64,000 bases of DNA from Pseudomonadota bacterium (GTDB lineage Bacteria > Pseudomonadota > Gammaproteobacteria > Xanthomonadales > Rhodanobacteraceae). The position numbers and the translations under genes were made by a program. The notes beneath the pieces were generated by a model. It did not search any database. It was not told the DNA's origin and was given only the letters and a program-made list of their open reading frames with translations. The stretch lies in NCBI GenBank assembly GCA_021794575.1, contig JAJYQO010000093.1:1-64000 (forward strand), in the 5' to 3' direction. The first letter of the stretch is position 1. Every line of letters starts with the position of its first letter. This document shows, in pieces, positions 18,629-24,224 of this stretch.

Positions 18629-19171
18629 TTACTCGTGGACGAGCACGGTGTGCGGTTTGCCCCGGCGTAGCTCGAAGCTGAAGGCATAGACCAGGCTGAA
18701 GGGTTTGGCTTCGGGATGGTTCACCCAGCGCCCATTTTCCGCGCGCGTGATGGTGATGATCAGCGGTGCGAATCGCCACTGACGCGTACAAATCTCGATC
18801 GCGGCGACGAACGCGTCGGCGTGGTCGATCTGCCGCAACTGCGCGGGCGGATCGGGCTGCACGCGCAGCACGCGGCCGTCGCCATCGATCACCAGCTTCA
18901 TCACCAGCGTCACCGGCGCCAGTTGCCGGGCAAGCAGGGCCGGCGGATAGACGGGATTCTCGAAGCGGACCAGCGTCGCGCCGGAAGCGCTTTGTCCGGC
19001 ACCGAGCTGATAGCGACGCGTCTGCGCGCCGGGTGCGGTCACCGGCGTGTAGCTGCCCGCGCCGATCAGCGGCGCGGATATGGGCCTTGGCGGCGGCGTG
19101 GCGCAGCCGCCAAGCAGTCCCACCAGCGTCACGCCCATCCATCTCGCGCGTCCGTGAGCGTGTGGCCTCAT
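18629..19171 (-). CDS. lipoprotein with TonB C-terminal-like domain
   Basis: A 180-residue predicted lipoprotein: a short basic N-terminus, hydrophobic core and lipobox LLGGC. The mature part contains a TonB-C-like fold: FENPVYPPALLARQ, VTLVMKLVIDGDGRVLRVQPDPP and ICTRQWRFAPL, which parallel the P-x-Y-P, strand and W-x-F elements of energy-transducer C-termini. It is lipid-anchored and lacks the TonB transmembrane helix and proline spacer, so it is unlikely to energise receptors itself. Its ATG overlaps the stop of the M56-TonB gene. It is the last gene of the blaI-like operon. Confidence 0.75.
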   Translation of the reverse strand: MRPHAHGRARWMGVTLVGLLGGCATPPPRPISAPLIGAGSYTPVTAPGAQTRRYQLGAGQSASGATLVRFENPVYPPALLARQLAPVTLVMKLVIDGDGRVLRVQPDPPAQLRQIDHADAFVAAIEICTRQWRFAPLIITITRAENGRWVNHPEAKPFSLVYAFSFELRRGKPHTVLVHE

Positions 19172-20469
19172 GCCGTGGGTGCGCTGGCCTTGGATTTCTC
19201 CTGACTCTTCCACATCTTGAACTGGATCGGCACTTTCACCCAGCCCGCAACCGATTTGCCATCGCGCATGCCGGGCTTGAAGTGCCACTGTGCGACGGCT
19301 TGCAGGGCGGCACTGACCAGACTTTGCGCAGGCTGCGGCCCGGGTTCGTGCAACTGCCGGATCGCCAGCGGCAAGCCCTGCGTGCCTACCAGTACGGCCA
19401 GATACACAGTGCCTTGCTCCTTGGCCTGCGCCGCGGTGGTCGGGTAGTGCGGCGGAAAATCTTGGTTGTAGCGGATGTCCTGGGAAGCCGGCCGCACATC
19501 GACTGAAGCTTTGACGGCAAGCGGACGGCCCCCTGGCGCGGCCAGTACCGCGCCGCTGAGCAGGATCAGCACCAAAATCGCGCCGGCAGCGCGGCGCGTG
19601 GCGGAACGACGGGTTTGCGCAAGCATGGCGATACGCTCCTGCAGTTGACGCGGGTGGGCCACGCCGCTGGTCAGCGGCAGGATGGTGCCGGTGGCGGCCA
19701 GCAGCAAAGTGTCGGCATAGGCGCGCGGCGCGGCATGGTGGCGTTGCAGCAGCAGCGCATCGCAGGCCAGTTCCTGATCCAGCAGAAAGCAGCGCCGTGC
19801 CCACGGCAGCAGCGGGTGGAACCAGAACAGCGCGCCCAGCAGCGCGGCCAGCAGGTTCCACCACGGATCGCCCTGCGCGTGGTGGCACAGTTCGTGGTGC
19901 AAGATGTGCGTCTGCTGCGTGCGGCTGTAGCGCCGGGTGAAATCGGCGGGCAGCAGCAACAGGGGTCGCGGCGCCCACAGCAGGGCCGGGCCGGCCGCAT
20001 GCGCGCGGATGCGCAACTTGCGCGCGATATCGTGATGCAGCATTTGCACCGTGCGCAGTTCATGCGGCGCCGGCCGCAACCCGCGCCGCAGGCTCGCGTA
20101 ACGCAGTATCAGAATCAGCAGCGACAGCGCGCAGCCGGCGATCCACACGCCCAGCAGCGCCGCGCCCATGCTGATCGGCGCGTGGGTGGCGGTGATGGAT
20201 GCGGCCCGCGCGACCACCAGCGTGCCGGCGTCGATGCCTTGCCAGCGCAGCGGCGATGCCGCCGGTGCCAGCGCGGCCCACGCGGCGACCAGCACCGCGC
20301 CTGGTGGCAGCAGCCACAGCGAATAAGCAGCGCGCGGCCCCGAGAAACGTCGCAGGGGATGACGCAGCAGCAGTACCGCCAGCAGCGTGATGCTGAAACC
20401 GGACAGGGCGTTCAAGGCGCAGATGGCCGGCGCGGCGAGGGCACCGAAATCGAGGGTCGGCATGATCAT
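19168..20469 (-). CDS. M56 (BlaR1/MecR1-type) membrane metallopeptidase with C-terminal TonB-like domain
   Basis: A 433-residue protein. The N-terminal part (about 1-310) has four or five transmembrane segments and the M56 zinc site H192-E-L-C-H196 in HHELCHHAQGD, with LDQELACDALLLQRHH downstream. Instead of the penicillin-binding sensor of true BlaR1, the C-terminus (about 330-430) is a TonB-C-like domain: FPPHYPTTAAQAKEQGTVYL and AVAQWHFKPGMRDGK. By analogy, an extracytoplasmic signal activates the peptidase, which inactivates the BlaI-type repressor encoded just upstream. It overlaps both neighbours by ATGA. The signal is unknown; a beta-lactam is not implied. Confidence 0.85.
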   Translation of the reverse strand: MIMPTLDFGALAAPAICALNALSGFSITLLAVLLLRHPLRRFSGPRAAYSLWLLPPGAVLVAAWAALAPAASPLRWQGIDAGTLVVARAASITATHAPISMGAALLGVWIAGCALSLLILILRYASLRRGLRPAPHELRTVQMLHHDIARKLRIRAHAAGPALLWAPRPLLLLPADFTRRYSRTQQTHILHHELCHHAQGDPWWNLLAALLGALFWFHPLLPWARRCFLLDQELACDALLLQRHHAAPRAYADTLLLAATGTILPLTSGVAHPRQLQERIAMLAQTRRSATRRAAGAILVLILLSGAVLAAPGGRPLAVKASVDVRPASQDIRYNQDFPPHYPTTAAQAKEQGTVYLAVLVGTQGLPLAIRQLHEPGPQPAQSLVSAALQAVAQWHFKPGMRDGKSVAGWVKVPIQFKMWKSQEKSKASAPTA

Positions 20470-20870
20470 TTCCTCTTGCCGGGGCGTTTGCGCGTGGTGC
20501 CGGCAGGTGCGGATTCGAGCTGGTCGAGCAGGGTGCGGATCTCGGCGATGTCGCGGCGGCTCAGCGCCTGGCTGCGGCTGAAATGCGCCAGCAGCGGCGG
20601 CAGGCGTCCATCGAATAGGCGCCGCAGCAGCCCGCCGGTTTCCTCGCTGATCCAGTCCTCGCGCTGCTTCAACGCGCTGTAGATGTAGCGCCGGCCGTCA
20701 CGATCGATGCGCAGCATGCCCTTCTCGCGCAGGCGCGCCAGCAGAGTCTTGATCGTGGTCGGGCTCCAGCTGCTGGTACTGGCGAGATGCGCCATGACCT
20801 GCTCGGCGCTGCTCGGACCCAGCGCCCACAATGCTTCCATGACGCGACTTTCGGCGGGGGTGATCGACAT
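20466..20870 (-). CDS. BlaI/MecI/CopY-family transcriptional repressor
   Basis: A 134-residue winged-helix repressor. ITPAESRVMEALWALGPSSAEQVM and SWSPTTIKTLLARLREKGML are the typical BlaI helix-turn-helix and recognition helix, followed by a wing (RDGRRYIYSAL) and a dimerisation helix bundle. The N-terminus is placed at MSITPAE to match family starts; an ATG three codons earlier is possible. Two operator-like repeats lie directly upstream, so it probably represses its own operon. Cleavage or inactivation by the neighbouring M56 protein is the expected induction route. Confidence 0.9.
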   Translation of the reverse strand: MSITPAESRVMEALWALGPSSAEQVMAHLASTSSWSPTTIKTLLARLREKGMLRIDRDGRRYIYSALKQREDWISEETGGLLRRLFDGRLPPLLAHFSRSQALSRRDIAEIRTLLDQLESAPAGTTRKRPGKRK

Positions 20871-20881
20871 GGCACGCATCA

Positions 20882-21017: not shown

Positions 21018-23180
21018 TTACAGGCTGAGCTTGAAGCCAGCGTACCAGGTCCGACCCAGGGCGGGCTCGATGCCGTAGGTCCACACGCGCGAGTAGTACC
21101 TGCGGTTGAAAACGTTGGACACGCCGCCCAGCAGCTCGACGCGCGCGGTGAGGTTCCAGTCGGCGGCGAAGTCCCACACCGAGTAGGCCGGGATCAGCGC
21201 CGGCAGCAGTATGGTGCCGCCCACGCCGGGCTGGTCCTGGGCGCTGTCCTGCCAGTACTGCGAGGAGGAGAACACGCCGGTGAACGCCACGCGGTAGTGA
21301 CCGTCGCGGCGCCAGGTGAGGCCGGCCTTGTACAGGTGCCGCGGCGAGTACGCCGGCGGTTTGCCGACCTGGTTGGGGATCGCGCTGGCCACGAAGCGCG
21401 CGTGCAGCAACTGCACGTTGGCGAAGGCCTCGAGGTGTTCGCCCCCGGCGGCGCCGTGCAGGAAATCGTAGGCCAGCTCGCCCTCGAAGCCTTCGTTGTG
21501 CGTGTCGCCGCTGTTCTGCTCGATGGACACGATCGGGCTCAGGTTGATGGTCTCGATGCGGTTGTGGAAGTCCATCCAGAACACGCTGGCGTCGTAGAAC
21601 AGGCCATCGGCCGGCGTGCCGTGCACGCCCAGCTCGTACGAGAGCACCTTCTGCACCGCCGGCGCGGTACCGGGCACGATGTTGGCGTGCGGCGAGCCGA
21701 TGTCGAAATAGCGCACCGGGCGCCAGCCGGTGGAGACGTTGAAGTAGGTCTCGTTGAGGTGGCCGTGGTCGAAGAAGTCGTTGCCGATGCCGAGGCCGAA
21801 CAGCGGCACGGTGCGCGAGACGGTGGTGTTCAGCAGCGGCCGCGAGAGGTTGGGCGGGCGCACGGTCTCGTACACGCTGACCTTCTCGTGATCGAGCCGC
21901 AGCGAGGGTACGATGTGCCAGCGGTGCCGCGGCCCGAAGCGGAACAGACCGCCAGCGAATACCGCGGCGTAGTCGGAATGGCGCCCCTGCACCAGCGTGG
22001 GCACGCCGCCGGTGGCATCGCGCGGCGCCAGCAGGTCGGTGTAGTTGGCGCCGCGCAGCGGCGCGTCGGAGTGATACAGCACGGTGCCGAAGGTGAAGGT
22101 ATCGCCGGGGCCGAAGTCATGGCGCAGGCGCAGGTCGGTGCCGACGTAGCGGAAGCGCGCATCCTGGATGTTGGTGACGGTGGGCTGCGGTTGCGGCGGC
22201 ACCGCCGGGTTGGCCACGCGCTGGGTCAGCTCGGAATCACCCACCCAGGCCTTGCCGTAGAAGCGCCAGTGATTGCCGAACCGCTGCTCGTGGGTCAGCA
22301 CGGCGACGTTGCGGTCGGCCCACTCGCGGTTGGCCGGCGTGGTGGTGAGGTCGGGATTGGCCGCCCATTGCGCGTAGGTGAGGCGTCCGGCGTCGTTGGA
22401 CGCGGCGTCGTACAGATGCAGGGCCAGGCCCCACCGCGAGGTCGCGCTGGGCGTCCACAGCAGGTCGGCATCCAGTCCCTTGACCTCGTAGCCGCTGTTG
22501 GCGCGCGGCCCGTCGCTGCGGTTGAGCCATCCGGCCACGCGCCAGGCGACGTCGCCGCTGCTGCCCTTGAGCACGTTGTAGGTCTGCCAGCCGCCGTGGC
22601 TGCCGATCATCTGCTCGGTGCTGGCGCCGAAGGGCTGGCCGGCCACCGCGCCCTTGGACACGAAATTGATCACCGGCGCCGGCTCCGGCCCGTACAGCAG
22701 GCTGTTGCCGCCGCGGATCACCTGGATCTCGCGCACGCCCTGCAGCGGCGGCTGGTAGTACAGCGTGGGAAAGCCGATCCAGTCCAGTTCGGTGGGGATG
22801 CCGTCCTGCAGCACCAGCACGTATTCGGATTCCTGCGGATTGCCCAGCCCGCGGTAGGTGAGGTTGACGCGCAGCGGATCCTGCTCCTGCGACACGATGA
22901 TGCCGGGCGTGCGCACGAACAGTTGCGTGAGGTTGTCCTGCGCCACGGTCGGGATCTGATCCATGTGCGTGACCGTGGCCTTGGTGGTCGCGGTGATCAG
23001 CGCGCCGTCGACCTCGGGCATCAGGTACTGCAGCTTGGGTTTCCAGAATGGCTCGATCCGTTGATCGACCTCGACCTTGGGCAAGGTCAGCAGCGGTTGG
23101 TCGTTGGCGGGCGGTGCGTTTTGACTCGCAGGCAAGTGTGTGCCGGCGAGCAGCAGTGGCAAGGTGGCGAGGATGGGCAT
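21018..23180 (-). CDS. TonB-dependent outer-membrane receptor (FecA-like)
   Basis: A 720-residue outer-membrane receptor. A short signal peptide precedes a possible TonB box (LPKVEVD, about residue 35). The plug domain carries QLFVRTPGIIVSQ, LTYRGLGN, VLQDGIP and GVREIQVIRGGNSLLYG, followed by a 22-strand-type barrel ending NVFNRRYYSRVW...WYAGFKLSL. The plug most resembles ferric-dicitrate/FecA-type receptors. It lacks the extended N-terminal signalling domain of FecA, so it probably does not regulate a sigma factor. It is divergent from the CxCGCG barrel gene and lies downstream of the BlaI/M56 operator region. The substrate is unknown; iron or copper chelates are candidates. Confidence 0.88.
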   Translation of the reverse strand: MPILATLPLLLAGTHLPASQNAPPANDQPLLTLPKVEVDQRIEPFWKPKLQYLMPEVDGALITATTKATVTHMDQIPTVAQDNLTQLFVRTPGIIVSQEQDPLRVNLTYRGLGNPQESEYVLVLQDGIPTELDWIGFPTLYYQPPLQGVREIQVIRGGNSLLYGPEPAPVINFVSKGAVAGQPFGASTEQMIGSHGGWQTYNVLKGSSGDVAWRVAGWLNRSDGPRANSGYEVKGLDADLLWTPSATSRWGLALHLYDAASNDAGRLTYAQWAANPDLTTTPANREWADRNVAVLTHEQRFGNHWRFYGKAWVGDSELTQRVANPAVPPQPQPTVTNIQDARFRYVGTDLRLRHDFGPGDTFTFGTVLYHSDAPLRGANYTDLLAPRDATGGVPTLVQGRHSDYAAVFAGGLFRFGPRHRWHIVPSLRLDHEKVSVYETVRPPNLSRPLLNTTVSRTVPLFGLGIGNDFFDHGHLNETYFNVSTGWRPVRYFDIGSPHANIVPGTAPAVQKVLSYELGVHGTPADGLFYDASVFWMDFHNRIETINLSPIVSIEQNSGDTHNEGFEGELAYDFLHGAAGGEHLEAFANVQLLHARFVASAIPNQVGKPPAYSPRHLYKAGLTWRRDGHYRVAFTGVFSSSQYWQDSAQDQPGVGGTILLPALIPAYSVWDFAADWNLTARVELLGGVSNVFNRRYYSRVWTYGIEPALGRTWYAGFKLSL

Positions 23181-23294
23181 GGTGGTCTCGGCAAACGCAT
23201 TGGTGGGTGATGCGGCAAGATGGCGCGGGTCTGGAGTCTGGATTTCATCCGAAGTTTTTATCTAATCTTCGACGCCAATGATGGAAATTCCCAG

Positions 23295-24224
23295 ATGTCG
23301 CACAAGTCTACCGGCGCGCTCGCGCTGAACCTGGCTTTGATCCTCGCTCTGCCGCAGGCAGCACATGCTTGTGCCTGCGGCTGCGGCATCTTCAGCGTGG
23401 GCGCCGGCAACATGCTGCCGTCCACTCTCGGCAACGGCACCGAGCTGTTCGCGAGCGTGGACTATCTCGACCAGACCAGGGACTGGTCCGGCAGCGCCAG
23501 CGCGCCGGCCTCGGCCAACGCCGACAAGAACATCCGCACCCTGTTCCAGACCGTCGGTGTGCAGACTTTCTTCAACCGCGACTGGGGCCTGCGCGTCGAA
23601 CTGCCGTACTGGCAGCGCCATTTCACGACGCTGGACGATGCCGGACAGCCGGTGAGCTTCGACCACGGCGCACTGGGCGACCTGCGCGTGCTGGGCCTGT
23701 ACACCGGCTTCTCGCGCGACCGTTCCAGCGGCCTGATGTTTGGCGCCAAGCTGGCCACCGGCGACTGGACCTATGCCAACTTCGACCGCGATACCGAAAT
23801 CGGCACCGGCACCACCGACCTGCTGCTGGGCGGCTACCACCAGTGGAAGTTCGGCGCGGATGGCACGTGGGGCGCGTTCGTGCAGACCATGGCCGACCTG
23901 CCGGCCGGCAGCCGCGTCGGTTACCGGCCCGGCAAGGAGCTGGACACTGCCTTCGGCGTCTATCCGCAGGGTTGGGACATTGGCGGCACGCACCTGACGC
24001 CGGTGCTGCAGGCGCTGCTGTCGTTGCGCGGCAAGGACAGCGGCGTGCAGGCCGATCCAGGCAATTCCGGCTACCAGCGCCTGGTCGTTGCGCCCGGGAT
24101 GGAACTGGCCTGGCAGCGCCTGCGTGTCGACCTCAGCGTCGGCGTGCCGGTGTACCAGCACGTCAACGGCAATCAGCTGGTCGCGCCCTGGCAGGGGTCG
24201 CTCAATCTGAGCTACGCCTTGTAG
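23295..24224 (+). CDS. CxCGCG-type outer-membrane beta-barrel protein of unknown function
   Basis: A 309-residue exported protein. A signal peptide (about 1-25, ending AAHA) is followed at once by CACGCGIF, a Cys cluster that would sit at the mature N-terminus. The remainder alternates in amphipathic strands (GLRVELPYWQRHF, GDLRVLGLYTGFS, LLLGGYHQWKF) and ends NLSYAL, fitting an outer-membrane barrel of about 12 strands. Recurrent NFDRDTEIGTGTTD and NQLVAPWQ segments look conserved. The start at MSHKSTG is preferred over the track's GTG/ATG 25 codons earlier. Divergent pairing with a TonB receptor suggests metal uptake or sensing; the Cys cluster would suit copper. This is inference. Confidence 0.65.
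   Translation: MSHKSTGALALNLALILALPQAAHACACGCGIFSVGAGNMLPSTLGNGTELFASVDYLDQTRDWSGSASAPASANADKNIRTLFQTVGVQTFFNRDWGLRVELPYWQRHFTTLDDAGQPVSFDHGALGDLRVLGLYTGFSRDRSSGLMFGAKLATGDWTYANFDRDTEIGTGTTDLLLGGYHQWKFGADGTWGAFVQTMADLPAGSRVGYRPGKELDTAFGVYPQGWDIGGTHLTPVLQALLSLRGKDSGVQADPGNSGYQRLVVAPGMELAWQRLRVDLSVGVPVYQHVNGNQLVAPWQGSLNLSYAL

Follow-up and report, generated by a model that had tools for sequence, protein, structure and literature searches.

The barrel gene of a divergent gene pair in the 64,000-nucleotide stretch of DNA analysed here (the window) encodes a putative copper channel of the outer membrane, which represents an outer-membrane channel family that has not been described before, spans many phyla and carries an N-terminal CxCGC or CxxCGC peptide. 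We favour, at a probability of roughly 0.55, the reading that this family consists of COG4313-like channels with a Cu(I)-thiolate plug, which would be expressed behind a copper-sensing leader in many lineages and hand copper over in the periplasm, most likely for uptake. The CACGCG barrel is probably linked to a soft metal, copper, on the basis of its gene neighbours across phyla and not of the TonB-dependent receptor encoded next to it, the adjacency of the two genes being a chance neighbour arrangement. The original prediction had suggested copper for both proteins; this part is supported for the barrel alone, by neighbour association across phyla. What is new is the conserved cysteine peptide and its copper context, both undescribed, the COG4313-like kind of channel being already known.

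Table 1 Coordinates of the features at the receptor-barrel locus of the window.
Feature	Coordinates	Strand	Basis or remark
TonB-dependent receptor, 720 aa, no Cys	21018..23180	-	PF07715 Plug, residues 64-165
Divergent intergenic gap, 114 bp between start codons	23181..23294		Between receptor and barrel
COG4313-like 12-stranded outer-membrane barrel (predicted), CACGC family, 309-aa precursor	23295..24224	+	Structure prediction, Foldseek
Predicted Sec signal peptide of the barrel, MSHKSTGALALNLALILALPQAAHA	23295..23369	+	AHA/C cut and same position in relatives
CACGCG, predicted mature N-terminus of the barrel	23370..23387	+	Cys1, Cys3, Gly4 and Cys5 invariant in 72 relatives
Remainder of the conserved N-terminal segment, IFSVGAGNMLPSTL, ahead of the first predicted strand	23388..23429	+	
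BlaI/CopY-type repressor, neighbouring operon	20466..20879	-	Rejected as part of the system
M56 (BlaR1-type) peptidase with TonB C-terminal domain	19168..20469	-	Rejected as part of the system

Both genes of the divergent pair at 21018-24224 are real and lie where the original prediction had placed them (Table 1). The likeliest start of the barrel gene is the ATG at 23295, an alternative in-frame ATG at 23220 adding 25 residues ahead of the signal peptide. As judged from the sequence, the signal peptide is cut directly ahead of Cys1, after AHA, and the mature protein would start CACGCGIFSVG, the three cysteines of which are its only ones. A consensus scan of the 114-bp gap detected no sigma-70 promoter-like and no terminator-like site, and the gap is too small for a DUF2946 leader; aligned across the genus, it shares little except a short CTAxxCTTC stretch. 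A GH3 gene lies between the barrel gene and trpS in the window.

Relatives of the barrel were gathered from two sources, 234 genomes of the bacterial family to which the window belongs and a scan of 84,980 species genomes, the best 80 of 298 confirmed relatives being kept from the scan. The relatives came from Alpha-, Gamma- and Deltaproteobacteria, Verrucomicrobia, Bacteroidetes, Ignavibacteria, Binatota and, going by MAG labels that may be imprecise, other groups. C1, C3, G4 and C5 (C-x-C-G-C) were invariant in 72/72 aligned sequences, the alignment rows having been cut at the Cys motif, so that the motif helped choose the row starts and motif-less rows were truncated sequences only. Further invariant polar residues in this alignment are Q35, D52, R83, D104, K127, D141, D150, D223 and Q269. 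In nearly all full-length relatives the signal peptide, typically with an A-x-A cut, ends right before CACGC[GSN], one relative having CGCGCS, and in most members the N-terminal cysteines are the sole ones; a second subfamily, from the same bacterial family, carries CSTCGC or CATCGC at the matching position. Given that these four residues are invariant in relatives from many phyla and that the predicted cut falls directly before Cys1, CACGCG is not a chance peptide, and the earlier claim that it forms the mature N-terminus is borne out. A bacterial lipoprotein was also considered and rejected, as the residues before Cys1, inspected by eye (AHA in the window and AWA, SWA, ASA and others in relatives), do not make a lipobox. 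The window barrel had no match in Pfam or NCBIfam, and searches found neither plasmid-borne relatives nor, by sequence, relatives of solved structure. In the open-access literature we found no publication naming the family and nothing relevant on the barrel as Phenol_MetA_deg or on CACGCG with copper.

Structure prediction and Foldseek supported the predicted identity of the protein as an outer-membrane barrel. AlphaFold2 models reached a pLDDT of 82.3 with 34 sequences and of 89.5 (pTM 0.86) with 72 sequences, and the 12-stranded fold of the model together with its TM-score to 4rl8 fits the barrel fold of COG4313. The highest Foldseek TM-score was that to the COG4313 structure 4rl8 (0.69/0.73), FapF ranking first by E-value. 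The window barrel gave no PF13557 match above the cut-off, and 5/34 and 6/72 of the relatives matched this family with E up to 0.01. The N-terminal ~14 residues of 4rl8 lie inside the lumen, on the periplasmic side (PMC4493636), and by analogy the segment following CACGCG (Table 1) is expected to act as a lumen plug. As residues 1-20 of the model are of low confidence (pLDDT 56-60), the position of this plug is taken from the analogy.

The copper link comes from the gene neighbourhood. Outside the bacterial family of the window, a leader-like ORF, in which C-x(2,3)-C is combined with PP at the C-terminus, lay directly upstream of the barrel at 25/61 loci versus 2/555 background genes (p = 1e-25, although related loci and simple patterns make the p-values overstate independence, so that the enrichment and not the exact p matters). 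A thioredoxin-like gene followed the barrel at 18/64 loci versus 1/555 background genes, and a Sco-like gene lay near it at 11/61 versus 4/555, the background being the other genes of the same loci; 25/65 loci (~40%) had none of the three markers. Pfam searches found DUF2946 in 11 and PCuAC in 2 of the 44 upstream genes, and AhpC-TSA/Redoxin in 21-22, SCO1 in 10, CusF in 3, PCuAC in 2 and a multicopper oxidase in 1 of the 57 downstream genes, with TlpA/ResA-like proteins being the commonest downstream partner.

Within the bacterial family of the window, barrel loci yielded 15 genes of the DUF2946 type, and DUF2946 was confirmed by Pfam in both leaders tested. At the 13 loci with both genes called, leader and barrel were always on the same strand, the leader being directly upstream in 12 and separated from the barrel by a TIGR01778 copper receptor in 1. 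This operon (L127) has the order leader, TIGR01778 copper receptor (793.7 bits, cut-off 472), barrel, and receptors of this type occur at two barrel loci of the family. The spacing from CxxC to R[AG]PP is 44-46 residues in 15/15 leaders; in CruR, a spacing of 45 is conserved (PMC9426467). DUF2946 leaders sense copper via CxxC, and the arrest through which they act occurs at R[AG]PP (PMC9426467, PMC9973294, PMC12992588); they work in both directions, CruR turning genes off in copper (PMC9426467) and CutF turning them on (PMC9973294). In the window genome, a search found no DUF2946 gene in the window or anywhere else and no TIGR01778 receptor locus above the cut-off; SCO1-family genes are carried away from the barrel, which in this lineage has neither the leader nor the downstream partners.

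Two further observations concern these operons. The leader-like ORFs of other phyla (L202:7395-7748, L203, L205, L161, L170, L171 and L178) have PPPR, PPVPxP or TPPPK at their ends in place of R[AG]PP and are possibly unrecognised variants of copper-sensing arrest peptides. In L117:6232-7424 and L119:8669-10038, DUF2946-barrel operons are followed by a gene for a TIGR01244 sulfur-transferase-like protein (BLH phosphatase) and by a TauE/SafE exporter gene, a context that suggests a sulfide or thiol link.

The original prediction had joined receptor and barrel into one two-component outer-membrane uptake or sensing unit, and all barrels found in the genus do adjoin the receptor over ~24% protein divergence, with ~1.6 kb in between in G308. 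However, random co-occurrence across genomes, which the prediction itself had named as its refutation, is what we observed: among the 234 genomes of the bacterial family, the barrel occurs in 58 and the receptor in 75, and both occur in 18 against 18.6 expected (p = 0.63), or in 13 against 15.2 outside the genus. For the CACGC subfamily alone, 9 genomes with both genes were observed against 6.1 expected (p = 0.11), and 4 against 4.0 without this genus. The two genes adjoin each other only in G000, G307 (two copies), G308, G315 and G349; in G349 they lie on a 3.5-kb contig with 97-99% identity to the window. This window-like contig (L039, G349:C313) sits in a genome binned to another genus and is probably a bin contamination.

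Seven genomes of the same genus keep the receptor without the barrel, some of them ~99% complete; several genomes without the barrel are incomplete and may hide the gene, G305, G313 and G314 being 94-99% complete. Where a genome of the genus has no barrel, trpS is the direct neighbour of the receptor (L096, L126, L110), and in L097 and L098 the order is receptor, barrel, trpS. Mapped on the receptor tree, the with-barrel state requires at least 3 changes. The tree of the barrels requires two for those next to the receptor, a group within which a DUF2946-led barrel (L113) falls; the barrel either arrived at the receptor spot a single time, with repeated later losses, or arrived there on more than one occasion. 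In both cases the receptor, which keeps its locus on the trpS side without the barrel, has no need of it. The G308 barrel, 96% identical to that of the window in its mature part, has a completely different signal peptide and upstream DNA, which also speaks against a joint unit. In view of the random co-occurrence and of the repeated gain or loss, we rejected the functional pair and give the two-component unit only a minute probability. Between barrel and receptor in G308 lies an ORF resembling Rieske-type ring-hydroxylating oxygenases by eye (L099:8702-10292).

The receptor itself, identified by its plug domain (E 7.9e-11), is FecA-like only in a loose sense: it scored 65.7 bits against NF041676 (cut-off 1100) and 111.8 bits against TIGR01783 (cut-off 223.5), and no match to NCBIfam TIGR01778 was found. 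With the NF041676 score below the cut-off and no FecIR-type genes beside the receptor, a FecA ferric-citrate receptor was rejected. The sensing role once proposed was likewise abandoned: only ~60 residues precede the plug domain, a FecA-type signalling domain was not among the domains found, and the receptor has no FecI/FecR (sigma or anti-sigma) genes beside it in the window. The neighbouring M56-TonB operon, also assigned to the system by the original prediction, was excluded together with BlaI, as its best same-genus orthologues (60-71% identity) are unlinked to the receptor, lying on other contigs or, in G305, ~1.8 Mb away, and are absent from the other receptor loci of the genus. At several same-genus loci without a barrel (L096:5160-7240, L093-L095, L126), ECF sigma factor and DUF4097 genes converge on the receptor where the window has BlaI and M56-TonB. 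A gene for a sulfate ABC transporter substrate-binding protein follows the receptor homologue in L108:9987-10991 and L111:9821-10843, a hint of a sulfur-related ligand for this receptor branch, and the homologues in L101, L102, L103, L105, L106 and L107 are flanked by at least one ~1000-aa BNR/Sortilin-Vps10-type protein (LIGPFRGGRV).

Taking the barrel evidence together, we propose that the processed N-terminus, with CxCGC or CxxCGC, reaches into the mouth of the barrel from the periplasmic side and plugs it, as the COG4313 analogy suggests, and that its thiolates may hold Cu(I) there before passing it on. In many lineages the barrel gene would be expressed downstream of a leader of the copper-sensing DUF2946 (CruR/CutF/CopL) kind, and copper passing through the channel would reach periplasmic carriers encoded in the same operon, namely PCuAC, SCO1 and CusF-like proteins, while a TlpA-like thioredoxin might keep the thiols reduced. 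The flow would most likely be inward, supplying copper for cuproenzyme assembly. In the window lineage, the barrel would operate without leader and downstream partners, beside an unrelated TonB-dependent receptor.

The direction of transport could be the opposite, with the barrel exporting or sequestering copper in a resistance operon in the manner of PcoB/CopB and being switched on by its leader in excess copper, as CutF and CopL do for their genes. Leaders of the CutF/CopL kind do activate resistance genes (PMC9973294), and three CusF-like genes and one multicopper oxidase gene lie downstream of barrels. The common partners, however, are the delivery proteins SCO1, PCuAC and TlpA-like proteins, not Cus, CopA or CopB, and a TIGR01778-type copper receptor accompanies the barrel at two loci of the window's bacterial family; we consider export unlikely. 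SCO1 and PCuAC supply oxidases with copper, and carriers of this sort are reduced by thioredoxins of the TlpA type. As delivery partners are preferred over efflux partners, the gene neighbourhood favours uptake over export.

The frequency of TlpA/ResA-like genes among the downstream partners would also fit a redox element, in which a disulfide of the plug is broken and re-formed by a TlpA-like protein, gating a channel for another substrate, and a CxCxC motif can form disulfides. Such a gate is improbable, as it leaves SCO1, PCuAC, CusF and the copper-sensing leaders unexplained and the invariant cysteines number three, not two. Still smaller is the chance that the protein is a COG4313 channel of the usual sort, passing hydrophobic or aromatic compounds, with a structural Cys peptide: the fold matches 4rl8 and a few members match PF13557 Phenol_MetA_deg, but the window protein does not, and it is copper genes, not catabolic genes, that recur as neighbours.

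Little is known about the passage of copper over the outer membrane for the assembly of cytochrome oxidases; according to a 2025 study, aa3-type oxidases were without any identified copper import system dedicated to them until the TonB-dependent receptor TccA (PMC12617631). A widespread barrel with an invariant free N-terminal Cys peptide, copper leaders and SCO1, PCuAC and TlpA-like partners is a concrete candidate. We tentatively raise the idea, which we hold to be somewhat doubtful, of a third outer-membrane copper entry route beside general porins and TonB-dependent receptors, in which a dedicated COG4313-like channel, independent of TonB, plugged by a Cu(I)-thiolate site and controlled by copper-sensing arrest peptides, would feed SCO1/PCuAC for oxidase assembly in many phyla. 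If true, more genes would come under DUF2946 arrest peptides, and part of the large COG4313-like channel group would gain a function.

Among known systems, Pput2725 (PDB 4rl8; PF13557 Phenol_MetA_deg, SphA, TcpY) resembles the barrel in its 12 strands, predicted for the latter, in its similar size and in a short segment before strand 1. By contrast, the two share only ~12% identity, the window barrel has the N-terminal Cys peptide where the Pput2725 paper makes no mention of cysteine (PMC4493636), and the context is aromatic catabolism for COG4313/Pput2725 and copper-gene neighbours for the barrel family. The amyloid secretion channel FapF (PDB 5o65/5o67/5o68) is a similar barrel with the best Foldseek E-value, but its TM-score (~0.6) is below that of 4rl8, the conserved Cys peptide sets the barrel family apart, and no amyloid-secretion genes were noticed at barrel loci. 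OprC/NosA (TIGR01778), which serves outer-membrane copper uptake and shares an operon with the barrel in L127, is a TonB-dependent receptor with a CxxxM-HxM site (PMC7558416), and the window receptor, unlike it, is not of the TIGR01778 type. The operons bp2923-bfrG-bp2921 of Bordetella pertussis, with CruR (PMC9426467), and cutFOG of Rhodobacter (PMC9973294) differ in the regulated gene, which is a COG4313-like barrel here, no barrel being mentioned in either paper, and their kind of leader is absent from the window genome. The exported leader upstream of barrel relatives is nevertheless of the same type, and these operons share with those of the barrel family the DUF2946 leader with CxxC, ~45 residues and R[AG]PP, followed downstream by AhpC_TSA, SCO, PCuAC and TBDT genes.
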